Below are positions 10,905 to 58,261 of a DNA stretch of 64,000 nucleotides, one piece after another; the first letter of the stretch is position 1, and every line of letters starts with the position of its first letter. Source of the stretch: a virus; IMG/VR virus record IMGVR_UViG_3300046694_000315, positions 1 to 64,000 of that record, one strand, 5' to 3'. Both the position numbers and the translations under genes were made by a program. The notes under the pieces were generated by a model, which was not told the DNA's origin, ran no database searches, and was given only the letters and a program-made list of their open reading frames with translations.

Positions 10905-12815
10905 TCAGGAAAGCGCGCCCCAGACAGTACCGTTCGCCACGTTCGTAATGCTGTTGACCGTGATGGACCCCGGCATCGAGGCAAGGCCCGAGCCATAGGC
11001 GCCGAATCGGTAGTTGGCCGGAGTCAGGTTCACGTTGGTGACACCGGTAACGACGCTGGCTCCACGGGCGACGGACGGCATGGTTGTGCCGCCCGACACG
11101 AGATAGGCAATCCAGTACGCACCCGGTGCGAGCGAGTGCGAGACGGCCATCGGAGCCGACTTCGCGCCGGTCGACTGCATGCTCGTTGAGACGTCGGAAC
11201 TCTGGTCGATGAGCACTCCGGCGCTCGTGTAGAGGCCGATGTACGTACCGGTCAGCGCTGCACCCGCACCCGAGACGACCCACCAGAAGGTGGAGACGGT
11301 CTTCGTCGTGCGCAGGAACACCTTGGACAGAGCCAGCGCGCCGGACGACAGCGTGACTGCCGTAGGGCCGCAGGTGGCCGGGTCCTGAGTCCAGGTGGCC
11401 AGACCGTGGTCGGACGGCAGGGCGAAGCCGCCTGCGGACAGGTCGAGCGCCGAGACGTCTGCGGCGGTCAGCGTGATGCTGGCGCCGCTCTTGCCGTTGA
11501 CCGTGGTCGGGTTTCCCTGGGGCCCGGTCGCTCCTGTAGGGCCTGGGTCTCCCTGCGGGCCCTGGACACCCTGAATGCCCTGCGGACCGGTCGTGCCGGT
11601 ATCGCCCTTGGGACCCTGCGGCCCGGTGGCACCAGCGGGACCTTGTGCTCCCGTAGCCCCGGTGTCTCCGGTGTCGCCCTTCGTCCCTTGCGCTCCCGTA
11701 GGGCCGGGAACGCCCTGCGGCCCCTGGGGGCCCTGCGGACCGGGCACCGTGGAGTCAGCACCTGCCGGGCCTTGTGGACCGGTTGCGCCCTGTGCTCCGG
11801 CCGCTCCGGTGTCACCCTTCAGACCCTGGATACCCTGCGGGCCTTGCGGACCGGGATCACCTTGCGGTCCCTGGGCTCCGGTCGATCCGGTCGCTCCGGT
11901 GTCGCCCTTGACGCCCTGTGCGCCTTGCGGCCCGGTGTCGCCCTGGAGTCCCTGGGGACCGGGGTCACCCTGAATGCCCTGTGGGCCGGGCGCTCCCTGC
12001 GGGCCTGCTGCTCCCGTGTCACCCTTCGGTCCCTGGAGTCCTGCGAGGCCCTGCGGACCTTGCGGTCCGGTCTCCCCTGGGATCCCCTGGTCGCCCTTGG
12101 GTCCGGCGATCCCCTGGATGCCCTGGGGGCCCTGAGCGCCGTCCGCTCCCGTATCGCCCTTTGGCCCCTGGGGCCCGACCTCGCCCTGAAGTCCGGTCGC
12201 GCCTGTGTCACCCTTCGGTCCCTGGATGCCCTGGAGTCCCTGCGGGCCCTGCGGACCGGGCACCGTGGAGTCGGCGCCAGCAGGACCCTGCGGACCGACC
12301 GCACCCTGTGGGCCCTGCGGTCCGGTTACTCCCGGGTCGCCCTTGTCTCCCTTGTCGCCCTTGGGGGCCGGAGGCATGTTCAGCGCGCCCATGGAGGACG
12401 GGACCTTGAGGAGGGATGCCACCTCCACGTTCGGCACGATCGCGGGCAGCCCGACGTCGAACGGCTTCTGCGTCTGGCCGTCCACGATGCCGGTGAACTT
12501 GTAGGTGAAGTTTCGCGGGGAGAGCGAGCCGTTGTCGCTGGCGAGAAGCGTGACGGAGTACCGGCCGTTGAGGAGGTCGATCTCCTTGCGGCGCAGGCGG
12601 ATAACGGCACCTGTCGCGGGGTGCACCAGTTTCGATATGGAGGGGTCGATGTTGATGCGACCGGAGGCGGGCCTGCCGTCGTTGTCGAGGTGATATCCGG
12701 TGACGGTGACCGTGGCGACGTCGTCCGGGAGTTCCGTGGGAGGCACGTATACGCCGCCCTCTGGCCAGTTTTCATTCTGGACGGTGAAGCCCGGAATGGA
12801 CCATGCGTCGTTCAA
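10905..12815 (-). CDS. Collagen-like fibre protein
   Basis: A 636-residue protein in three parts. The N-terminal 150 residues form a beta-rich domain beginning [19 protein letters not shown] collagen-like region follows (about residues 150-445) of Gly-X-Y triplets dominated by GPQGPQG, GPKGDTG and GPAGADS, with internal longer repeats. The C-terminal 190 residues (from [20 protein letters not shown]) look like a carbohydrate- or host-binding head. It would trimerise as a rod. Its place between terminase and portal is unusual for a tail fibre, so a head-attached fibre is possible. Confidence 0.8.
11480..12370 (-). repeat. Collagen Gly-X-Y repeat tract
   Basis: Nearly uninterrupted 9-bp and 18-bp periodic repeats encoding Gly-X-Y triplets, with two long near-duplicates around [14 protein letters not shown] (about 11740 and 12265). 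Such tracts change length easily by slippage or unequal recombination. Confidence 0.85.
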
Positions 12816-12824
12816 GGGAGTTCC

Positions 12825-14399
12825 TTAGCGCTGGAAGGGAGAATTGGAAACCTCGACCTCGGGCATCGTGTAGTCCTTTGTCAGGACACAGGCGAGCGCC
12901 AGGGAATCCGCGTAGTCGTCGTGCGCATCAGCAGCGCGGGGAGCGGCTGCGAGTACGTACGGACCTTCGAAGTGCTTCTCCAGGTCTTCCATCTGCTGCC
13001 GGAAGCGCTTGTACGACTTGAGGCGACGGGTATAGGCGTGCGCGGGCCAGGAGATCAATCCCCGGTTCATGAGTTCCATGAGGTGCTTCCAGCGCTTGGA
13101 CTGTTCCGGGCGCTGGGAAGAAAGGGCCACGATGTCGATGTCGGGCATAAGGACCCTGAGCCGGGATATGACGACGTCGCCGACTCCGCCTTCGTCGACT
13201 GCGATGGCCATGACGTTGTAGTTCCGGACGAACTCGACGATGCGGAAGTACTGGGCTTCCCAGTCCATGCCGCCGAGGTCCATCCAGTTCAGGACCCGGT
13301 GCTCGTAGTTGCCGAACTCGTCGGGCTGGTCCCAGCGGACCCACACGGCCGTGACGATCGTGGAGTCCTGCTTGCGCGCAGGGTCGATGCCGATGACGAT
13401 CGGGCTCTTGTGGTAGGCCGGGACCACCTGCATGGAGACGTCGCCGAGTTCGTCGAGGCGCTCGGTGGTGGTGAACATGCCCTTGTCGAGCAGCCACATG
13501 AGGCGGTACGACAACTTGAATTCGTCGGAGTCCTCACCAATACGGAGGAGTTCCTTCTTGACGAACTTGGCGTAGTTCTCGTTCCACTTCGAGACTTCTT
13601 TCCAGTCCGCGTCGAAGTGGTTCTGCCGGGCGCCGCGCTTTGTTGCGGTCCGCCGGTTGATCTGGATCTGGTTGTAGAAGACGCCCTTTTCGTATGTGGG
13701 CGTGCCGGTGAAGACCATCGTCGCGTTGGTCGAGGCGCCCATCGGGCCGATCGACTTGTTGACCATCTTCTCGTCCGCGCCCTGGCACTCGTCGATGAGG
13801 ATCAGGTGGTAGGTGCGGCCTTCGATGGTGGCGCGGGGGTGGCAGGTCTGCTTACGCACGAGGGAGCCGGAGCGCTTGAGGGAAATGGAGCGGCCCTTGC
13901 CCTGTACGGTGTCGTCGATTTCGGGGTCCGCCATGATTTCCAGGGCGTGGTCACTGGTGAGGCGGGCCACGATTCGGCCGTAGAGGTTGTCGGCCTGCTC
14001 TTCCACCGGGGCAAATGCTCCGACCCACAGACCCTCTTTGAACTTGTCCATCAGGTCGGGAAAGATCTTCGCCAGCCGGGGGAACATGATCATGCAGGCG
14101 GCGACGACATTGGCCACGGTCTCGCTCTTGCCGGACTGGCGGGAGAACAGGGCTGTGAGGGTGGCGCCGTCGTTGATGATCAGCGACTCGATCAGACGAG
14201 CCGCGAAGGGGCGCTGGTAGCCGTAGAGAGGGTGGCCGGATACCTCGTCGACGATGACGAGCATCTTCGCGACGATCTGGTCTACGAATGCCTGCGAGGT
14301 CTGGTCGAGGACCACCTCGGTGTCAATCCGCGCCTGACGCTCTTCATCGGTCTCGTCGCTGATGAACTCGTCGTACTCGACGTCCTCCGTAACAGACAC
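12825..14399 (-). CDS. terL: Terminase large subunit
   Basis: About 524 residues. ATPase part: FSRQSGKSE (Walker A-like, about residue 86-93) and LILIDECQ (Walker B, about 205). Nuclease part: VIGIDPARKQDST with the first catalytic Asp, then AVDEGGVGD and, near the end, DAHDDYADSLALA with acidic residues typical of the RNase H-like fold. It packages DNA into the head. GTG at 14399 is chosen; an in-frame TTG at 14411 is the alternative, and both lie in the arm of an inverted repeat. No small terminase was recognised nearby. Confidence 0.9.
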   Translation of the reverse strand: MSVTEDVEYDEFISDETDEERQARIDTEVVLDQTSQAFVDQIVAKMLVIVDEVSGHPLYGYQRPFAARLIESLIINDGATLTALFSRQSGKSETVANVVAACMIMFPRLAKIFPDLMDKFKEGLWVGAFAPVEEQADNLYGRIVARLTSDHALEIMADPEIDDTVQGKGRSISLKRSGSLVRKQTCHPRATIEGRTYHLILIDECQGADEKMVNKSIGPMGASTNATMVFTGTPTYEKGVFYNQIQINRRTATKRGARQNHFDADWKEVSKWNENYAKFVKKELLRIGEDSDEFKLSYRLMWLLDKGMFTTTERLDELGDVSMQVVPAYHKSPIVIGIDPARKQDSTIVTAVWVRWDQPDEFGNYEHRVLNWMDLGGMDWEAQYFRIVEFVRNYNVMAIAVDEGGVGDVVISRLRVLMPDIDIVALSSQRPEQSKRWKHLMELMNRGLISWPAHAYTRRLKSYKRFRQQMEDLEKHFEGPYVLAAAPRAADAHDDYADSLALACVLTKDYTMPEVEVSNSPFQR

Positions 14400-14443
14400 G
14401 CCTAACCCCAATCCCGTTTTCTCTACGGAATTGAGGTTAGGCG
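14399..14443 (-). promoter_or_regulatory. Start-overlapping hairpin upstream of terL
   Basis: Inverted repeat of 14-nt arms (14399-14412 and 14430-14443, one mismatch) with a 17-nt loop. The left arm covers the possible TTG and GTG starts of terL. Similar placement to the hairpins at 10826 and 21374. Terminator, attenuator or translational control are all possible. Confidence 0.6.
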
Positions 14444-15630: not shown

Positions 15631-16707
15631 CTACTGTGCCCGGCGCAGCGGGACGACGTTCTCCTGGCTGACCATCGCGGTCAGGAAGGCCTTGCCCTTC
15701 ATGGTCTCGTCGCGGCGCCTGCGCTCCGAGGACAGGCCCAGGTAGCGCTCGGTGGTGGCCATGTTCGAGTGGTGCAGCAGGGCCGAGACCGTGCGGAGCC
15801 CGGCGTCGTAGCCCAGTTCCGTGGACAGAGAGTCGAAGTACGCGCGGGCGACCGCCCGGCGGATGGTGTGCGTGCCCTCGTAGCGGGTGGGCAGCCCCAC
15901 GGCCGCGAGCGCGTGCTTGACGATCTTCTCTGTGCGCTGGACAGGCCGGTCTGGGTGCCAGACGAAAGGTGTGCGGACGTAGACCCGCTGGCCGGTCGCC
16001 TCGTCGAGGTAGTGGGTGGAGATGGTGTTCCCCGTGCGGGCAGGGAACAGGTAGTCGTCGGCGCGTAGCGGGCGGCCCAGCAGCTCGGCGTACTCGACCA
16101 GCCACAGGCGCAGCTCGCGCTCCAGGTCGGCCGTCAGCGGCATCTCGTCCTCCTCCCGCGTCTTGACCACGGTCACGAAGACTTCCGACCGCACGAAGTC
16201 GACGTCCCCGACGCGCATGCCCGTGATCTCCGAGGCCCGGCAGGCGGTGTTGATCGCGGTGGCCAGGTAGGCACGGTGCATCGCGCACTCCGCCTGGTCC
16301 AGGAGCTGGAGCAGAAGCGAGGGTGGAGGCTGCTGGCGGCGCTTCTTCGGCTCCGGCAGCGGCTCGACGCCGGTCAGGTAGTTGTCCAGCGCGGTGAATC
16401 CGCTGTTCTTGCAGTAGGTGAAGAACACCTTGAGCCGGGCGCGGTAGTTGTTGTGGGTGCTGGGGCCGACGGCCTCGCGGATCGGCTGGCCCTTGATGCG
16501 GGTGGAGTGGGCGTCCATGATCCCGCCCGGCCCGTAGAAGAAGTCACGCACCTGCTTGGCGGAGAGCTGGGAGAAGTCGGGGTTGCCCAGGTGCTCGGCG
16601 AACCGGGGCAGCAAGGTGGTGTCGACGCGCATGGTGTTGTCGGCCTTGCCGGAGCGCTCCCGGGTCTCCAGGTACTCCTCGACGGCGCTGCGCAGTGCGA
16701 TGGTCAC
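15631..16707 (-). CDS. Tyrosine recombinase/integrase
   Basis: A 358-residue protein with an N-terminal SAM-like core-binding domain (about residues 5-100, IALRSAVEEYLETRE) and a catalytic domain: TACRASEITGMRVGD (Arg I), THTIRRAVARAYF (His-x-x-Arg) and LLHHSNMATTERYLGLS (catalytic Tyr). GTG at 16707 with AGGAGG 4 nt upstream is chosen; the frame is open further but lacks another good start. It would catalyse site-specific integration/excision. No attachment site core was identifiable. Confidence 0.9.
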   Translation of the reverse strand: MTIALRSAVEEYLETRERSGKADNTMRVDTTLLPRFAEHLGNPDFSQLSAKQVRDFFYGPGGIMDAHSTRIKGQPIREAVGPSTHNNYRARLKVFFTYCKNSGFTALDNYLTGVEPLPEPKKRRQQPPPSLLLQLLDQAECAMHRAYLATAINTACRASEITGMRVGDVDFVRSEVFVTVVKTREEDEMPLTADLERELRLWLVEYAELLGRPLRADDYLFPARTGNTISTHYLDEATGQRVYVRTPFVWHPDRPVQRTEKIVKHALAAVGLPTRYEGTHTIRRAVARAYFDSLSTELGYDAGLRTVSALLHHSNMATTERYLGLSSERRRRDETMKGKAFLTAMVSQENVVPLRRAQ

Positions 16708-16738: not shown

Positions 16739-16767
16739 ACTCTATCGTCGTCAAGTGCATACATCAA
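16739..16767 (-). promoter_or_regulatory. Integrase promoter
   Basis: TTGATG and TAGAGT separated by 17 nt, about 32 nt upstream of the tyrosine integrase start. Confidence 0.6.
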
Positions 16768-16772
16768 GTCGC

Positions 16773-16803
16773 TTGCATAGCGATTCCGAGGAATCGATAG
16801 TAC
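16773..16803 (+). promoter_or_regulatory. Divergent promoter with palindromic operator
   Basis: TTGCAT and TAGTAC (19-nt spacer) lie so close to the ATG at 16813 that the transcript would be leaderless. The spacer contains a perfect palindrome, CGATTCCGAGGAATCG (16781-16796), a likely operator. Confidence 0.55.
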
Positions 16804-16812
16804 GGTTCCCGT

Positions 16813-16959
16813 ATGACGATGACAGAGATCAGCCCGGCACCGCTTCATACTTCCGCCCCGACAGCAGAGGAGGCGTGGCTGGCCGCATGGACGGCCCGAG
16901 CGCCCGTCCTGGAGCCCGAGAAGGCCGACGAGGTCCTGGAGTTGATGGGCCTGCTCTAG
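16813..16959 (+). CDS. Tiny WxAxW protein divergent from tyrosine integrase
   Basis: A 48-residue protein with AWLAAWTARAPVLEPEKADE. The W-hydrophobic-A-x-W-xxx-AP-x-L-xx-E pattern is shared with the tiny gene at 18698, which is divergent from the other integrase. No ribosome binding site; probably leaderless. It has a plus-strand copy of the dispersed motif (CTT CAT ACT, Leu-His-Thr at residues 11-13). A role in integrase control is inferred only from position. Confidence 0.65.
   Translation: MTMTEISPAPLHTSAPTAEEAWLAAWTARAPVLEPEKADEVLELMGLL
16842..16850 (+). repeat. Dispersed CTTCATA motif copy, plus strand
   Basis: CTT CAT ACT, Leu-His-Thr, in the tiny gene at 16813; the only copy in a plus-strand gene and again in sense orientation. 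Confidence 0.8.
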
Positions 16960-16960
16960 A

Positions 16961-16998
16961 CGAAACCCCCGGTCGCCAGTGGCTTCCGGGGGTTTTCG
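16961..16998. terminator. Bidirectional terminator
   Basis: Stem CGAAACCCCCGG / CCGGGGGTTTTCG with a 13-nt loop, between the tiny plus-strand gene and the convergent serine integrase. Confidence 0.85.
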
Positions 16999-17005
16999 CT
17001 GTCTG

Positions 17006-18550
17006 CTACGCGGCGAAGATCGGCTCTATCCTCGCGGGGTCGAAACCGCCGCCCCTCTTACCGTCCCGCGCGGGGTGGATGACCACTGCGGTCAGGACGG
17101 TGCGGGCCACGATGCGCTGACGCTCGACCGACATGCCATCCCAGCCGACGCGCAGCAGCTCGGGAGTGACGGCCCGGACGGCGGCAGGGGCCGAGTAGGC
17201 GCGCAGGGCGCGGAGGTCCTTCTTCTCGGCCTCCAGGTCGTCGAGGGTCGTCATGTAGGTGACGGCCTTGACCTTCTTCGCATCCCACAGGACCTTGATG
17301 TCCTTGATCTCCTGCTCGACCTCGGCCAGTCGGGCCTCCTTCTCCGGCGTCCAGTCGCTGTGAACCTGCTCGGGAACCTTCTTCTCCTTCGTGGACTTCT
17401 CCACGATGTTCCAGATCAGCTTCTTGATGAGTTCGTCGACCCGGGGGCCGGTGACGCCCATCCGCCCGCAGGCGTCGGGGTTGGAGGAGGTCTTGTTGCA
17501 GTTGTAGCCGAAGGAGTCGGACTTCTTTCCCCGGATCCATACGGGCTTTCCGACCATGGGGTATCCGCACCGGCCGCAGCGGCAGATCCGGGACAGGAAG
17601 TACTTCACCGCCACCTTCTGGTCGTAGGCGGCGTAGTTACGCGGCTGGGCCTTCTCTCGCTCCTTCTTCGCGCCCAGGACGGCCTCGTACTTCTCTACCG
17701 GGCAGAGCGGCTCCCACGGGCCCATGACGTAATTGCCTTCGGCGTCGTACTGCACCTCTCCGAGGTATATACGGATCCCGGCGTTGCGCGGTCGCATGAT
17801 GATCGTCTTCACACCGGCCCACGTGTAGGGCTTTCCGGTGTCCTTGTTGAGCACGCCGGAGTCGAGGAAGAACTTGGCGATGGTGGTGTTCTTGTCTCCG
17901 GCGATGTACATGTCCATCGCCTTGTTGACGATGTCCTTGGCTACCGGGTCGACCTTGTCCCTGTCCTCTTCCATCCAGCCGTAGGGGTGCGTGCCGCCGT
18001 GGTAGCGCCCCTTTTCGGCACGGTACTTGTTGTCACGTTTGATTCGCCGGGAGGTGTCCTCGGAGGACTTATTGGCGATGGAGACGTAGAGGCGTGCGGA
18101 GAACCGGCCGTCGGAAGTGGTGAGGTCGAAGTTCTGTCCGGAGAGGGTGTCGAAGACCAGCCGCTTCTTCTTCCTCTCGATGAAGTCCTCGTAGACGTCG
18201 ATGTACTTCTCAAGGTCGCGCGGCTGGCGAGCGAACCGGTCGATGTCGTAGGCGAGGACTCCGGCGATGCGCTCGGCCTTGAGGTCGGCGAGCATGCGGA
18301 GGAAGTCCACGCGCTTGACGTTGCGCTTGAAGGCGGACAGCCGGTGGTCCTCGTACCAGACCACGGTGCGCTCGTGCTTCTCGGCGAGGAAACGCAGGTC
18401 CTCCTTCTGCTTGACAATCGCCTTGCGCTCCTCCTCGGCGGCCTCCTCCTCGGTGATGCGACCGGCCTTCACGGCCCGCCGGAGTTCAGCTACGTCCACG
18501 TCAGAGATGCGGAGGTAGCCCCCCAACGGGCGGTCGTCCCTGATACCCAC
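17006..18550 (-). CDS. Large serine recombinase/integrase
   Basis: About 514 residues. The N-terminal resolvase domain has GGYLRISDVDV (catalytic Ser) and VLAYDIDRFARQPRDLE (Arg-rich active-site segment). The recombinase domain follows (THPYGWMEEDRD), then a zinc ribbon with CRCGRCGYP and later CNKTSSNPDACGR, and a C-terminal coiled coil. GTG at 18550 is chosen; TTG at 18583 is an alternative, and the ribosome binding site is poor for both. A second integrase beside a tyrosine integrase is unusual. Confidence 0.88.
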   Translation of the reverse strand: MGIRDDRPLGGYLRISDVDVAELRRAVKAGRITEEEAAEEERKAIVKQKEDLRFLAEKHERTVVWYEDHRLSAFKRNVKRVDFLRMLADLKAERIAGVLAYDIDRFARQPRDLEKYIDVYEDFIERKKKRLVFDTLSGQNFDLTTSDGRFSARLYVSIANKSSEDTSRRIKRDNKYRAEKGRYHGGTHPYGWMEEDRDKVDPVAKDIVNKAMDMYIAGDKNTTIAKFFLDSGVLNKDTGKPYTWAGVKTIIMRPRNAGIRIYLGEVQYDAEGNYVMGPWEPLCPVEKYEAVLGAKKEREKAQPRNYAAYDQKVAVKYFLSRICRCGRCGYPMVGKPVWIRGKKSDSFGYNCNKTSSNPDACGRMGVTGPRVDELIKKLIWNIVEKSTKEKKVPEQVHSDWTPEKEARLAEVEQEIKDIKVLWDAKKVKAVTYMTTLDDLEAEKKDLRALRAYSAPAAVRAVTPELLRVGWDGMSVERQRIVARTVLTAVVIHPARDGKRGGGFDPARIEPIFAA

Positions 18551-18640
18551 TCCTCGTACCCCAGCTTCAGCTACCCTTGTCAAACGGTCTGGGGTACACC
18601 CTAGACGAAGCGTATGTAGTTCTGTCAAAGTTGGGACATG

Positions 18641-18660
18641 CGGAGTTCGACGTAACTCCG
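18641..18660. promoter_or_regulatory. Inverted repeat in divergent intergenic region
   Basis: CGGAGTT-6 nt-AACTCCG between the serine integrase and the tiny divergent gene. Candidate operator. Confidence 0.45.
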
Positions 18661-18697
18661 TACAGCGGACAGGCAGTCGACAGAGAGGTGACCTGCA

Positions 18698-18823
18698 ATG
18701 ATGACGGACAGCGACTGGATCGCTCACTGGGTGTCAGCGGCCCCGACCCTCAGCTCCGAGGTCCTGGAGACCATCGCCGACGCCGTCGAGGCAGAGGACG
18801 ACGAGGAACTGCTGGCAGCCTGA
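18698..18823 (+). CDS. Tiny WxAxW protein divergent from serine integrase
   Basis: A 41-residue acidic protein with DWIAHWVSAAPTLSSEVLE. It shares the W-hydrophobic-A-x-W-xxx-AP-x-L-xx-E pattern with the gene at 16813. AGAGAGGTG lies about 7 nt before the ATG. Its position relative to integrase and terminator copies that of the other tiny gene. Function unknown. Confidence 0.65.
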   Translation: MMTDSDWIAHWVSAAPTLSSEVLETIADAVEAEDDEELLAA

Positions 18824-18829
18824 CACCAT

Positions 18830-18870
18830 ACGAAAAGGCCCCCACCGGGTGACCGGGAGGGGGCCTTCGT
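18830..18870. terminator. Bidirectional terminator
   Basis: ACGAAAAGGCCCCC / GGGGGCCTTCGT stem between the tiny plus-strand gene and the convergent gene ending at 18870. Confidence 0.8.
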
Positions 18871-28682: not shown

Positions 28683-28982
28683 ATGTTCTGGTTCTGTGAG
28701 ACGTGCAACGACTGGGGTGTTGCGGACACCGAGGTCGACGTCGTGGTGGACCGCCAGCGGCACATGGGCGCTCACGTCGAGCGGGCCCTGGAGATGACAG
28801 AGCCCCAGGAAGAGTCCGTGGCTGAGGTTGAGGACACTGTCCTCCGCGCCAAATACCTGGCGTGGGGTAGCACGGCTCTGCTGGGGCTACTGTCTGCTCG
28901 TTGGCACGCGCTGGCGGGGGTAGTGCCGTTCGCGGCCTTGCTCGTCTGGGTGGTGACCCAGTCGGGCAATGAGGGTGAATGA
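28683..28982 (+). CDS. Small membrane protein with Cys motif
   Basis: A 99-residue protein. The N-terminus has FCETCNDWG and later His residues (RQRHMGAH), resembling a zinc finger. The C-terminal half has two hydrophobic stretches (AWGSTALLGLLSARW, LAGVVPFAALLVWVV). Its 3' end overlaps the tRNA-His gene on the opposite strand. Function unknown. Confidence 0.6.
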   Translation: MFWFCETCNDWGVADTEVDVVVDRQRHMGAHVERALEMTEPQEESVAEVEDTVLRAKYLAWGSTALLGLLSARWHALAGVVPFAALLVWVVTQSGNEGE

Positions 28983-29059
28983 CGGGGGTTGAACCCGCAC
29001 GCTCCTTTCGGAACACCGGGGTCACAGCCCGGCGCGGCTACCATTTCGCCACACTCACC
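28974..29059 (-). tRNA. tRNA-His (GTG) with long variable arm
   Basis: Acceptor GTGAGTG/CATTCAC, D stem GCG/CGC, anticodon stem CCGGG/CCCGG with loop CTGTGAC (anticodon GTG), T stem GCGGG/CCCGT with loop TTCAACC. The His identity pair G-1:C73 is encoded. The 17-nt variable region can form TCC-GAAA-GGA, which is unusual for tRNA-His. CCA is not encoded. Confidence 0.82.
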
Positions 29060-29134
29060 ATGAGAAGGTCTCGACCACGCGCCACCCACCCGGAATCTCA
29101 CCGGCCTAAGCCTTGTCCGTCGGCCCTTCCCTCG

Positions 29135-29207
29135 CTCCCCGACCTGGATTCGAACCAGGAACCAGCGGATTAACAGTCCGCTGCTCTGCCGATTGAGCTA
29201 TCGAGGA
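29135..29207 (-). tRNA. tRNA-Asn (GTT)
   Basis: Acceptor TCCTCGA/TCGGGGA, anticodon stem GCGGA/TCCGC with loop CTGTTAA (anticodon GTT), T loop TTCGAAT. Discriminator G; CCA not encoded. Confidence 0.93.
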
Positions 29208-29272
29208 ATGCATCAGTGTTTGCACTGACCCTACTGGACTCCACGCCCAGACAGGTAACTGACCCCAGACCG

Positions 29273-29355
29273 TAGCCAAGGTGGGACTCGAACCCACACG
29301 CTCTTACGAGCACCGTCTTTTGAGGACGGCGTGGCTGCCTTTTCACCACTCGGCC
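29273..29355 (-). tRNA. tRNA-Leu (CAA)
   Basis: Acceptor GGCCGAG/CTTGGCT, D stem GTG/CAC, anticodon loop CTCAAAA (anticodon CAA, reads UUG), long variable arm as expected for Leu, T loop TTCGAGT. Discriminator A; CCA not encoded. Confidence 0.9.
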
Positions 29356-29360
29356 TTGCG

Positions 29361-29384
29361 CCGGAGGGTTTTCAGGCCCTCCGG
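29361..29384 (-). terminator. Hairpin after the NlpC/P60 gene
   Basis: CCGGAGGG / CCCTCCGG stem with an 8-nt loop between the cell-wall enzyme gene and tRNA-Leu. Could be a terminator or a processing site. Confidence 0.6.
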
Positions 29385-29401
29385 CCTTTCCTACGTGAAG
29401 C

Positions 29402-29899
29402 CTACTTCACGGTGTAGCGGCCGTAGTAAACGGACTTCGTCCAGGGCTTGTAGTAGTTGACACCCCTGCCCGGCCGCTCGCTTTCCAGCCAGGTGTGGGA
29501 ATTGACGTATATACCGACGTGGTAGACGTAGCCGCGCGAGTCGTGGGCGAAGACGAGGTCCCCGGCCCGGGGGCTCTTGACGTGCAGGCTGTGCCTGTAC
29601 TGGTCGTTCGCGACCCGGGGAATACTCTTCCCCAGCTTCTTCAGGGTGTACTGGGTCAGGCCCGAGCAGTCGAACCCCCTGGACGGCGAGGATCCTCCCC
29701 ACACGTACCGGACTCCCTTGTACTTGGCGCCCTGCTTCACGATCTTCGTTCCGGACGACACCGTAGTGGTGGACTTTACGGCGACCGGTACGGCGATCTT
29801 CGTGGATGCGACCGGCGTATTCGCCTGCGCGCTTGATGTAGCGAGCGGGGAAAATGCCAGGGCCGCAGCGAGCAGAAGTCCAGCGATCCTCTTATTCAT
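29402..29899 (-). CDS. Secreted NlpC/P60 peptidase
   Basis: A 165-residue protein. A signal peptide covers about residues 1-30 (basic MNKR, hydrophobic core, cleavage near SAQA). The NlpC/P60 domain follows: VRYVWGGSSPSRGFDCSGLT (catalytic Cys) and GDLVFAHDSRG, YHVGIYV (catalytic His). It should cut peptidoglycan stem peptides. ATG at 29899 is chosen because the signal peptide begins there. It lies within the tRNA array. Confidence 0.9.
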   Translation of the reverse strand: MNKRIAGLLLAAALAFSPLATSSAQANTPVASTKIAVPVAVKSTTTVSSGTKIVKQGAKYKGVRYVWGGSSPSRGFDCSGLTQYTLKKLGKSIPRVANDQYRHSLHVKSPRAGDLVFAHDSRGYVYHVGIYVNSHTWLESERPGRGVNYYKPWTKSVYYGRYTVK

Positions 29900-30063
29900 G
29901 ACAGCACTCCGCACGCTTACGAGATTAGGTGACGGGCTCGGGTAAGTGCCTTTCCCTACCACAAATAGCTCTGCGGATTCGCCCCAAAAGATTCGGTCTC
30001 CCGCCCCTGTTCAGGGTTGAGTTCAGGATTTGTCCAGGAACAGGGCTCAGCGTCTGGACAAAG

Positions 30064-30136
30064 TGGCCCCCTCTGGAATCGCACCAGAATCTCCCGCTTT
30101 TCAGGCGGGCGCATTAACTGCCTCTGCCAAAGGGCC
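30064..30136 (-). tRNA. tRNA-Phe (GAA)
   Basis: Acceptor GGCCCTT/GGGGGCC (two G-T pairs), anticodon stem CCCGC/GCGGG with loop CTGAAAA (anticodon GAA), T stem TCTGG/CCAGA with an atypical loop TGCGATT. Discriminator A; CCA not encoded. Confidence 0.88.
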
Positions 30137-30142
30137 GTGAAG

Positions 30143-30216
30143 TCTGGACGGCAGGATTTGAACCTGCGATCTCCTGATCCCAAATCAGGCGCGCTACCGG
30201 GCTGCGCTACGTCCAG
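30143..30216 (-). tRNA. tRNA-Pro (TGG)
   Basis: Acceptor CTGGACG/CGTCCAG, anticodon stem CCTGA/TCAGG with loop TTTGGGA (anticodon TGG), T loop TTCAAAT. Discriminator A; CCA not encoded. First tRNA after the promoter at 30232. Confidence 0.93.
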
Positions 30217-32476: not shown

Positions 32477-33403
32477 TCAGAAGGCTCCAGGAGCCACCTG
32501 AAGGCACCGCAGACCGAGCAGGCGCCACATCTCCACGACCTGGTCACGGTCGTCGAGGACGAACCACACGTTGTAGAACGGCTCGATCTTCGCCCGGTAG
32601 ATCTCCTCCTTGACGACCGAGTCCTTGCGCATGTCGTCTGGCGCCCGCATGTGCAGGTACGCCTCCCGCGTCCACTTGCCCACGTGCAGTTCCAGCCAGG
32701 CCCGCGTCTGGTCGTAGCAGCAGCCGTCACGGCCGGACAGGAACACGATCTCCGCGCCGCTGTCCCGCAGGGTGTTCACCAGGTCGATGACCTCGCTGAT
32801 CGGCTCGTCCTCGCCGACCCGGTCCCACTCGAACGGGCTGCGGCCGACCATCCGCGCCAGCGTGCCGTCGATGTCGACCAGGACCATGTTCGGCTTCGCC
32901 GGGTCGTACGGGGGCGCCTCGGCAGGCTTCGGGGCCAGGTACTGGTTGTACATGTCCCGGATGACCTTCTCGCCGACGCTCCGATCCCGCTGGAGGTCAC
33001 GCTTGATGCAGGTATGAAGCGGCACGGCCGTGTGGTCGGAGACCTTGAACTCCGCACCGTGGTACGCGGCCAGCCGCCGCAGTTCCTTCTCGTGGTTGGG
33101 GTTGAGGTTGGTGTCGTCCACGATGACGCTCACGCCGTCGCCCAGGAACGCCTCGACGAGGGCGTTGCGGGCCCGCACGACCCGGCGTTCGTTCTTCCCG
33201 TGCCAGACGCTGTCGTGCAGCATCGTGCGCAGGTCGTCCTTGTTGATCCGGACCAGCGTGCCGGGCTGGGCCTTGGCCACGATCCGCTTCGCCTCGGTGC
33301 TCTTGCCGGAGCCGGGCAGTCCCTTGGTCATGGTCAGCGTCAGCATCGTCACGGGCTTCTCCTTGTTCTTCGGGCCGCAGCACCTGCACTTGTAGGTGCT
33401 CAC
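32477..33403 (-). CDS. Polynucleotide kinase-phosphatase (T4 Pnkp-like)
   Basis: A 308-residue protein. The kinase half has KGLPGSGKST (Walker A) near residue 30 and RVVRARNALVEAFLGDG. The C-terminal HAD phosphatase half has VLVDIDGTLARM (DxDGT) and IVFLSGRDGCCYDQT. It would repair RNA ends left by anticodon nucleases. GTG at 33403 overlaps the upstream stop (GTGA) and adds a CRCCG segment; ATG at 33346 is the alternative. The motif copy Leu-His-Thr in VPLHTCIKRD falls where such kinases typically have another residue pair between Leu and Cys. Confidence 0.88.
   Translation of the reverse strand: MSTYKCRCCGPKNKEKPVTMLTLTMTKGLPGSGKSTEAKRIVAKAQPGTLVRINKDDLRTMLHDSVWHGKNERRVVRARNALVEAFLGDGVSVIVDDTNLNPNHEKELRRLAAYHGAEFKVSDHTAVPLHTCIKRDLQRDRSVGEKVIRDMYNQYLAPKPAEAPPYDPAKPNMVLVDIDGTLARMVGRSPFEWDRVGEDEPISEVIDLVNTLRDSGAEIVFLSGRDGCCYDQTRAWLELHVGKWTREAYLHMRAPDDMRKDSVVKEEIYRAKIEPFYNVWFVLDDRDQVVEMWRLLGLRCLQVAPGAF
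33011..33019 (-). repeat. Dispersed CTTCATA motif copy
   Basis: CTT CAT ACC, Leu-His-Thr, polynucleotide kinase domain. Confidence 0.8.
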
Positions 33404-33699
33404 TGGCAGCACCCGTCGCAGCCGTGCAGGCCCTCGTAGGGGTGGTAGTCCTCGCCCTGGATCAGGCGCTTGTAGGCGAGGTCGTCCGGGTCGGGGTGAC
33501 CCACGCCGTGGGGACAGGTCCGCTCCATCAGCGCCCGGTCCATGCGGAAGTGCTGGGGGAAGGCGGCCATGGAGTGGGCGGAGGGGTTGTGAACGCAGCA
33601 GTGGCGGCCGATGCAGTCCTTGCGGGGGTGGGCGAGGATCTCCTCCCCGCCCACCAGCTCGGCCCGCTCGAACCACCCGCCGAAGTCGTCGGGCTCCAT
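33400..33699 (-). CDS. Cys/His-rich protein between RNA-repair genes
   Basis: A 99-residue protein with many Cys and His: KDCIGRHCCVHNPSAH, TCPHGVGH, GLHGCDGCCQ at the end. Probably binds one or two metal ions. Coupled at both ends to the RNA ligase and kinase genes, so it likely belongs to RNA repair. No family recognised. Confidence 0.6.
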   Translation of the reverse strand: MEPDDFGGWFERAELVGGEEILAHPRKDCIGRHCCVHNPSAHSMAAFPQHFRMDRALMERTCPHGVGHPDPDDLAYKRLIQGEDYHPYEGLHGCDGCCQ

Positions 33700-56722: not shown

Positions 56723-58261
56723 CTAACCTTCCTGGTTGATGTAAGTTGGTACGTCGACGATTTCGGCGTCGATGAAACCGGTAGAGGCTTCGATCATCCG
56801 GTCCGCCGAGAGAGGCCTGTCGAGCGCTGTCATCTGTTCCCCGGCGTCCCGGCCGAAGATACGGCTGATCATACCGGCCCCGCCGCCATTCCCCTTAGCC
56901 TCCAGTTTCACGGAGAAGGAGTCCTGCTCCAGTTCCGTCTTCACCTTCACGAGTTTCTGGAGCCGGTCGATCTCGCCGGAGAGGTTCGGATCCGCGTAGC
57001 CACCGGTCATATCCTCGACCATCTTCATGAAGAGGACCCGCTGCGCCTGCATCTCGATGAGCGAGTTCTGGAGCGACTGCATCTGCTGCTTGCTCTTCAC
57101 TTCGACCGGGATGTCGTACGCGCAGTTGGCATTCTGGTCGAAGGCCGGGCACTTCGAGGACAGGAAGCAGGACGAGCAGGCGCGCATGGACTGGCTGCGC
57201 ACGGTCAGGAGGGGGATGTCCCGCTCCTTGTTCACGCCGTCCTCGGGGTCGGTGTAGACCTCCTTCTCCTGCACCAGGCCGATGACCGGCAAGTTGGTAC
57301 GCGGGCGGTCTCTGCGGACGGCCGGAGTTGTCACCGGGTTGAGCGTTTTTCCGTCCTCCGTACCAACTTCGGTGCCCTGCATTTGAGAGAAACTCGAAAG
57401 TACCCCTCCGGCAGAAGTAGTAACTGCTTGGGCTTCCTGCGGCCGGTGCTGGTCGATCGAGGCCGCCAACTGCTGCCACGACCAGATGGTGAACCGCAGG
57501 ACCTCGTCGTTCTCTCCGGCCTCGATACGGTCGGCGTCGAAGCCCGCTTCGGTGAACAGAGTGCGGTGCCTTTTCCGCGCCTGGTCCTTGTACTTCTTCG
57601 GGTAGCGCTTCAATTCCCGGCCGGTCCACACAATGGTGTCACCGTACTGGGAAGGGGAAAGCCAGGACGTCGAGGCGACGCTGTCCCAGTTCACGGCAGC
57701 CATTTCCGCAGGCTTAGTCATGGCCACTCCGTGGAGTAGCGTGCCGTATTTCCGGGTGATCTCGTTGAGAACCGGGGTGAGATTCCGGCCGTCGAGATCC
57801 GTCTGCGTCACACCGACCCGCTTATACCTCTGGGCGAGTTTATCGAGTTCGTCGACTCCCCATTCCGAATGCCATATCGGAAGGAACTTGTCTTCCGGCA
57901 GGTCCTCGTAGAAGTCCTCTCGCCGGGCCTCGATCCATTCCCGTCCGAGAACGACAGCGTCGAACTCGGACACCATATGAAGGGAATCGATATTCTGCTG
58001 GACGAACGCTTCGTAATGCGCGGCGATGTCCTTCAGTTCGCCGATCGAGTACTTGTCGTCGTCGGCCTTGTTGACCGTGTAGGCGCCGGAGTCCAGGAAC
58101 ACCTTCTGGTTTTCGAGGTAGTTGTCCTCGATCAGCCAGGGGCGGGTGAACTTGGTCCGGCGCCGCAGGCCCATGTACGAGAGGGAGACGGTTTCGACGC
58201 CTTCCTCGGCCAGCATCTTGCGCCAGCCGGGAATCTCGGATCCGCCGAGGAAGAGGTGCAC
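56723..58261 (-). CDS. TG transglycosylase-like (TGT/DpdA-type) barrel protein, tentative
   Basis: A 512-residue protein. The first 250 residues read like a TIM barrel of the tRNA-guanine transglycosylase/DpdA kind: MHLFLGGSEIPGW, KVFLDSGAYTVNK (candidate catalytic Asp), VSEFDAVVLGREW and LLHGVAMTKP. The second half has a linker, then CSSCFLSSKCPAFDQNANCA, four Cys fit for zinc or an iron-sulfur cluster, and coiled coil. DpdA enzymes put 7-deazaguanines into DNA. Leu-His-Met near residue 94 is encoded CTT CAT ATG, a motif variant. Confidence 0.45.
   Translation of the reverse strand: MHLFLGGSEIPGWRKMLAEEGVETVSLSYMGLRRRTKFTRPWLIEDNYLENQKVFLDSGAYTVNKADDDKYSIGELKDIAAHYEAFVQQNIDSLHMVSEFDAVVLGREWIEARREDFYEDLPEDKFLPIWHSEWGVDELDKLAQRYKRVGVTQTDLDGRNLTPVLNEITRKYGTLLHGVAMTKPAEMAAVNWDSVASTSWLSPSQYGDTIVWTGRELKRYPKKYKDQARKRHRTLFTEAGFDADRIEAGENDEVLRFTIWSWQQLAASIDQHRPQEAQAVTTSAGGVLSSFSQMQGTEVGTEDGKTLNPVTTPAVRRDRPRTNLPVIGLVQEKEVYTDPEDGVNKERDIPLLTVRSQSMRACSSCFLSSKCPAFDQNANCAYDIPVEVKSKQQMQSLQNSLIEMQAQRVLFMKMVEDMTGGYADPNLSGEIDRLQKLVKVKTELEQDSFSVKLEAKGNGGGAGMISRIFGRDAGEQMTALDRPLSADRMIEASTGFIDAEIVDVPTYINQEG
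57974..57982 (-). repeat. Dispersed CTTCATA motif copy
   Basis: CTT CAT ATG, Leu-His-Met, TGT-like protein. Confidence 0.7.

Follow-up and report, generated by a model that had tools for sequence, protein, structure and literature searches.

In a 64,000-nt stretch (hereafter the window) of the 106,046-base virus record IMGVR_UViG_3300046694_000315, a large serine integrase gene lies between two tiny, mutually related genes, W1 and W2, and the three form one mobile integration module. We hold, with about even confidence, that W1 and W2 are paralogous partners of this integrase and that, most likely, at least one of them is its recombination directionality factor. The homology of the two genes, their linkage to the serine integrase, a conserved control region and a provirus that breaks on the W2 side are observed directly; from these we infer contact with the integrase and a role in directionality.

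A serine integrase flanked by two tiny genes

The serine integrase (17006-18550, minus strand, GTG start, 514 aa) carries Resolvase, Recombinase and zinc ribbon domains in Pfam (PF00239, PF07508 and PF13408) and falls in PHROG 95. W1 (16813-16959, plus strand, 48 aa) is convergent with its 3' end, and W2 (18698-18823, plus strand, 41 aa) is divergent from it; both encode acidic proteins predicted to contain two helices. A tyrosine integrase gene (15631-16707, minus strand, GTG start; PF00589, E = 5e-15) is a neighbour outside the conserved module. Pfam and PHROGs agree on the family of both integrases, and the two integrases and two tiny genes sit where the original prediction, made from the sequence of the window, had placed them. 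That prediction also put a terminator past each tiny gene. Hairpins with 16-nt arms of 88% complementarity do lie there, one common to the convergent W1 and serine integrase (16963-16995, arms starting at 16963 and 16980) and one 3' of W2 (18835-18867, arms starting at 18835 and 18852), but neither was called by a consensus terminator scanner, and we refer to them as terminator-like.

W1 and W2 are real genes related to each other

W1 and W2 are real genes, conserved, under purifying selection and mutually related. Among the 244 open reading frames of 30-60 aa in the window, each is the top-scoring match of the other, with a Smith-Waterman score of 47 that was reached in 11 of 5000 shuffles (shuffled mean 24.6). 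When the set of W1 proteins was compared with the set of W2 proteins by hhalign, the probability was 91.5 (E = 8.6e-7), and none of 200 column-permuted controls matched the profile score. The similarity, first noticed as the shared motif W-[LI]-A-x-W-xxx-AP-x-L-xx-E, thus survives profile comparison. The window holds only these two copies, and a regular-expression search for the motif found no further copy in the other 42 kb of the record.

W1 is kept in the relatives L002-L007, L010-L012, L047, L049 and L050 and in Streptomyces phage Ibantik, where it is gp6 and annotated as hypothetical. W2, which has no annotation in Ibantik, lies beside the serine integrase in every relative whose record holds that sequence. 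In the nearest subgroup, amino-acid changes are fewer than silent changes in both genes, with pN/pS values of 0.14-0.29 for W1 and, from few silent differences, 0.35-0.55 for W2.

Neither protein matched Pfam or NCBIfam, and PHROGs returned nothing confident or above chance. AlphaFold2 models predict helices at residues 18-29 and 35-44 of W1 (pLDDT 81) and at residues 4-14 and 20-40 of W2 (pLDDT 85). A fold search of the W2 model against the PDB gave no match, and a PDB sequence search gave only repeat-like or chance matches. Both proteins are strongly acidic (pI about 4.1), which makes protein contact likelier than DNA binding.

W1 and W2 go with the serine integrase

Each integrase had been predicted to have its own tiny gene. 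In the subgroup of the window this layout is found: the relatives L002-L007 (73-100% identity) retain all four genes, the tyrosine integrase is present in L006 and L007, and W1 is divergent from it in the window and in these two records. Outside this subgroup, the serine integrase is the one that W1 and W2 flank. In Ibantik and in the metagenomic and proviral records L010-L012, L047, L049 and L050, the serine integrase is 57-62% identical to that of the window (58% in Ibantik), W1 lies at its 3' side in all of them, the W2 frame lies at its 5' side in all that hold the sequence, and no tyrosine integrase adjoins it. A combined W1 and W2 profile found two copies and no more, one on each side of the serine integrase, in nine of ten phage records; the tenth, G001, has one copy, and its record stops at the integrase. 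Three further integrases (57-59% identity) have W1 and W2 alongside; in one of these, L047, the W2 frame (near position 312, minus strand) is conserved, and its ATG ATG start reads ACT ACT with no usual start codon nearby.

Because W1, the integrase and W2 stay together with no adjoining tyrosine integrase, both tiny genes are assigned to the serine enzyme; the tyrosine integrase adjoins the module in just one subgroup. It is very improbable that W1 serves the tyrosine integrase as its own regulator, despite the divergent arrangement of the two genes: W1 persists where that integrase is not adjoining, and the palindrome between them (16778-16799) has no conserved counterpart in the two nearest relatives. 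On the same persistence, W1 was rejected as a tyrosine integrase excisionase. The predicted new family of integrase-linked proteins holds as regards its lack of confident matches to known families and its linkage to an integrase, but not as regards a link to both integrases.

The tyrosine integrase, which gives the phage a second integrase, is itself unusual: it has an intact frame, 74-90% conserved in two relatives, yet a tblastn search of 50,697 phage records at E 1e-5 found no match to it.

The module is shared with an unrelated phage

The window phage encodes a contractile tail sheath; the tail of Ibantik is of the tape-measure kind, and the Ibantik genome is 56 kb long. When the whole window record was compared with the whole Ibantik genome, the sole nucleotide-level match was window 17013-18520, within the integrase. 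Translated similarity at the module extends over 16982-18775, and the other translated matches are short and scattered. W1, just outside the nucleotide match, is recognised as a protein in Ibantik (53% identical). Since the only shared DNA is the integrase region and W1 is recognised beside it, the unit common to these unrelated phages is W1, the integrase and W2.

A conserved control region and the probable placement of attP

The interval between W2 and the serine integrase contains the palindrome CGGAGTT-N6-AACTCCG (18641-18660), whose arms are exact in the window. Its left half is present in all nine aligned members and both halves in most, and it is probably an operator between W2 and the integrase promoter. 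After it, on the integrase strand, comes a promoter-like region (18603-18635, minus strand) in which TTTGAC, then GTAC and CTA, are conserved alignment columns; judged from these motifs, the region may act as the serine integrase promoter. Of the palindromes predicted in both divergent regions, this one is conserved; the one beside the tyrosine integrase was rejected as a functional site for want of conservation. That the tiny proteins bind the palindromes, a point originally put forward for testing, is unlikely, given their pI and the lack of conservation of one of the two sites, and we rejected the W proteins as DNA-binding regulators of these elements because both are acidic.

The same region bears on another reading, in which W1 and W2 control integrase expression or another step, as anti-repressors, anti-activators or through antisense timing, rather than recombination itself. 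In its favour, the conserved palindrome and promoter-like region are situated between W2 and the integrase, a convergent W1 sharing a terminator with the integrase would suit transcription control, and the acidity of both proteins is in line with anti-factors, which are often acidic. However, proteins this acidic would be unlikely to bind the palindrome, and the module encodes no partner regulator. We regard expression control as possible, if on the doubtful side.

Just upstream of the integrase start lie the arms GTACCCCAG-N24-CTGGGGTAC (18556-18597), a 9-nt perfect inverted repeat retained in the close relatives L044 and L051. The provirus G001, which is Ibantik-like and circularly permuted, has its break next to the integrase, on the side of W2. 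Relative to Ibantik, it starts at gp2, continues across the junction of the genome ends and finishes where the integrase gene starts, and the trimmed record is without W2, gp4 and gp3. Its record number is of the kind that IMG assigns to sequenced isolates, and it looks like a provirus trimmed to gene ends. G001 behaves as a circularised, integrated phage, and in this single provirus the break falls between the integrase 5' end, from which W2 is divergent, and gp2. Because G001 is linearised there, attP most likely lies on the W2 side of the integrase, and the arms at 18556-18597 are a candidate for its exact position. A search of bacterial genomes with low-complexity integrase peptide patterns returned only an unrelated Lachnospiraceae locus, and no attB or chromosomal copies.

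Related genes at the integrases of Streptomyces phages

R4-like Streptomyces phages have a small gene convergent on the 3' end of the serine integrase, whose GTG start usually overlaps the stop codon of the gene before it (ThyX or a small gene). It is unannotated in Yosif, Celia, Nanodon, Conan, Provolone, Saftant and Dexers, and annotated as hypothetical in Speedwell, VieEnRose, phiScoe3 and phiCAM. More members were placed at the integrase by coordinate comparison or direct reading in Pavo, Sitrop, phiScoe10, phiScoe25, phiScoe45, phiScoe54, Kamino, Itza and Urza. W-related small genes thus lie at the serine integrase of 20 Streptomyces phages besides Ibantik, mostly R4-like and many of them unannotated. 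The R4-like profile matched the combined W1 and W2 profile in hhalign with a probability of 92, and none of 200 permuted controls was as good. The R4-like proteins are basic (pI 10-11), in contrast to the pI of about 4.1 of W1 and W2, and thus differ from them in physical character. For this reason, homology, suggested by the profile match, and a common function are proposed tentatively, and a single common mechanism is not assured.

In 17 whole phage genomes, matches to the R4-like profile were confined to the integrase 3' site, with two exceptions. One is phiCAM gp048 (L060, 704-928), a second W-like copy directly upstream of the serine integrase that resembles the genes 3' of other integrases, so that phiCAM has one copy on each side. 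The other is a marginal match (E = 0.007) within a 745-residue frame of Nanodon. Across the 50,697 phage records, all matches in Streptomyces phages lay next to a serine integrase; the refuting case, W genes in phages with no link to integrases, was not found among them, and non-Streptomyces matches were at chance level (E of 0.6 or worse). PHROG 24177, a functionally unannotated family of 48 positions, is weakly matched by the Speedwell and phiCAM gp048 members (E = 0.002-0.003), but not by W1 or W2.

We compared W, integrase and backbone (ThyX) identities among nine R4-like phages. W identity correlated with integrase identity (r = 0.85) and not with ThyX identity (r = -0.02), and none of 20000 permutations in a Mantel test reached the observed W-integrase value. 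In phages of the Yosif class, the last part of W lies antisense to the integrase gene; with the antisense-coded residues left out, r was 0.73 for the integrase and -0.21 for ThyX, and the Mantel test again gave 0 of 20000. Speedwell and phiCAM illustrate the pattern, with ThyX 99% identical, integrases 31% and W 38%.

Physical closeness alone could account for this co-segregation, or for part of it. The W genes may accordingly be passengers, terminal genes of an early operon with an unrelated job, carried beside a recombination-prone integrase. W1 starts with a GTGA overlap on the preceding early gene in Ibantik-like and R4-like phages, the gene is absent at the integrase site of R4, phiELB20, Puginator and phiJoe, and adjacency by itself would yield co-segregation. 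Passengers would not be expected, however, to stay with one integrase as two paralogs on opposite sides across unrelated phages, to occur on both sides of the integrase in phiCAM, or to have no copies found elsewhere in Streptomyces phages. We consider this explanation rather unlikely.

Proposed role and comparison with known directionality factors

On the preferred reading, that W1 and W2 are partners of the serine integrase, the two paralogous proteins would act by protein contact. Binding of W1, W2 or both to the integrase would permit attL x attR recombination, and the prophage would be excised on induction. The first directionality-factor candidate would be W2, since its gene and the integrase gene diverge and attP most likely lies between the two, the arrangement of phiJoe. 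W1, the last gene of the early lytic operon in relatives such as Ibantik, would be the second. Directionality factors are commonly, though not universally, encoded on the same element and tied to the integrase type, and the W genes show this trait. Against the role, two W copies per integrase exceed what a directionality factor needs, and known directionality factors may be unrelated proteins encoded elsewhere.

The nearest parallel in layout is phiJoe gp52, a tested directionality factor of 62 aa that is encoded divergently from int, with attP in the interval, and accompanies only phiJoe-like integrases (PMC5311408). The W2 arrangement resembles it in having a very small gene that diverges from a serine integrase, with attP most likely in between, and that is restricted to its own integrase type and is not a late gene; by this analogy, the predicted directionality-factor role would be compatible with the gene layout. 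The differences are that gp52 is basic, has a predicted beta element and is present in one copy, unlike the pair W1 and W2. Only weak local alignments link gp52 to the W proteins, and gp52 matches PHROG 11213, which the W proteins do not; homology was therefore rejected.

The directionality factors of phiRv1, SPbeta and TP901-1 are, like W1 and W2, very small proteins, and are compared here by description. The phiJoe report places the genes of phiRv1 and SPbeta one or two genes at most from the serine integrase, and its passages on the three systems describe no paralogous pair flanking the integrase (PMC5311408). Likewise, phiC31 gp3 and Bxb1 gp47 have the task proposed here, for large serine integrases, but are listed there as much larger than W1 and W2 (PMC5311408).

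A small gene adjoining an integrase also recalls the Xis excisionases. Xis proteins bind DNA, many through a winged helix; W1 and W2 are acidic and have two predicted helices only, and Xis models in Pfam, PHROGs and NCBIfam did not match them. The W proteins thus lack the character of a basic DNA-binding protein serving a tyrosine integrase.

More speculatively, and with less than even confidence by some way, the serine integrase may have two tiny paralogous cofactors, encoded on either side of its gene, that set recombination direction together or in opposition and represent an unrecognised, mostly unannotated directionality-factor family in Streptomyces phages. Directionality factors are hard to find, having no common sequence, size or place, and the phiJoe paper, in its discussion of them, holds that no sound generalisation exists (PMC5311408). 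A tiny family that recurs at the integrases of 21 named Streptomyces phages would provide a simple rule by which to pick out candidates for many uncharacterised integrases, and many of its genes are so small that they escape current annotation. The W genes are specific targets for experiments, and would supply small, orthogonal on/off partners for the integrases used in genome engineering.

Other features of the window

A collagen-like tail fibre gene lies at 10905-12815 (minus strand), and its repeats give rise to a long, probably spurious open frame on the plus strand (11406-14405). Five tRNA genes (His, Asn, Leu, Phe and Pro) are clustered at 28973-30216 (minus strand), near a polynucleotide kinase gene at 32477-33676 (minus strand; PHROG 505, E = 2e-95). 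A queuine tRNA-ribosyltransferase-like protein, encoded at 56723-58261 (minus strand; PHROG 887, E = 2e-75), is possibly part of a DNA base modification system.
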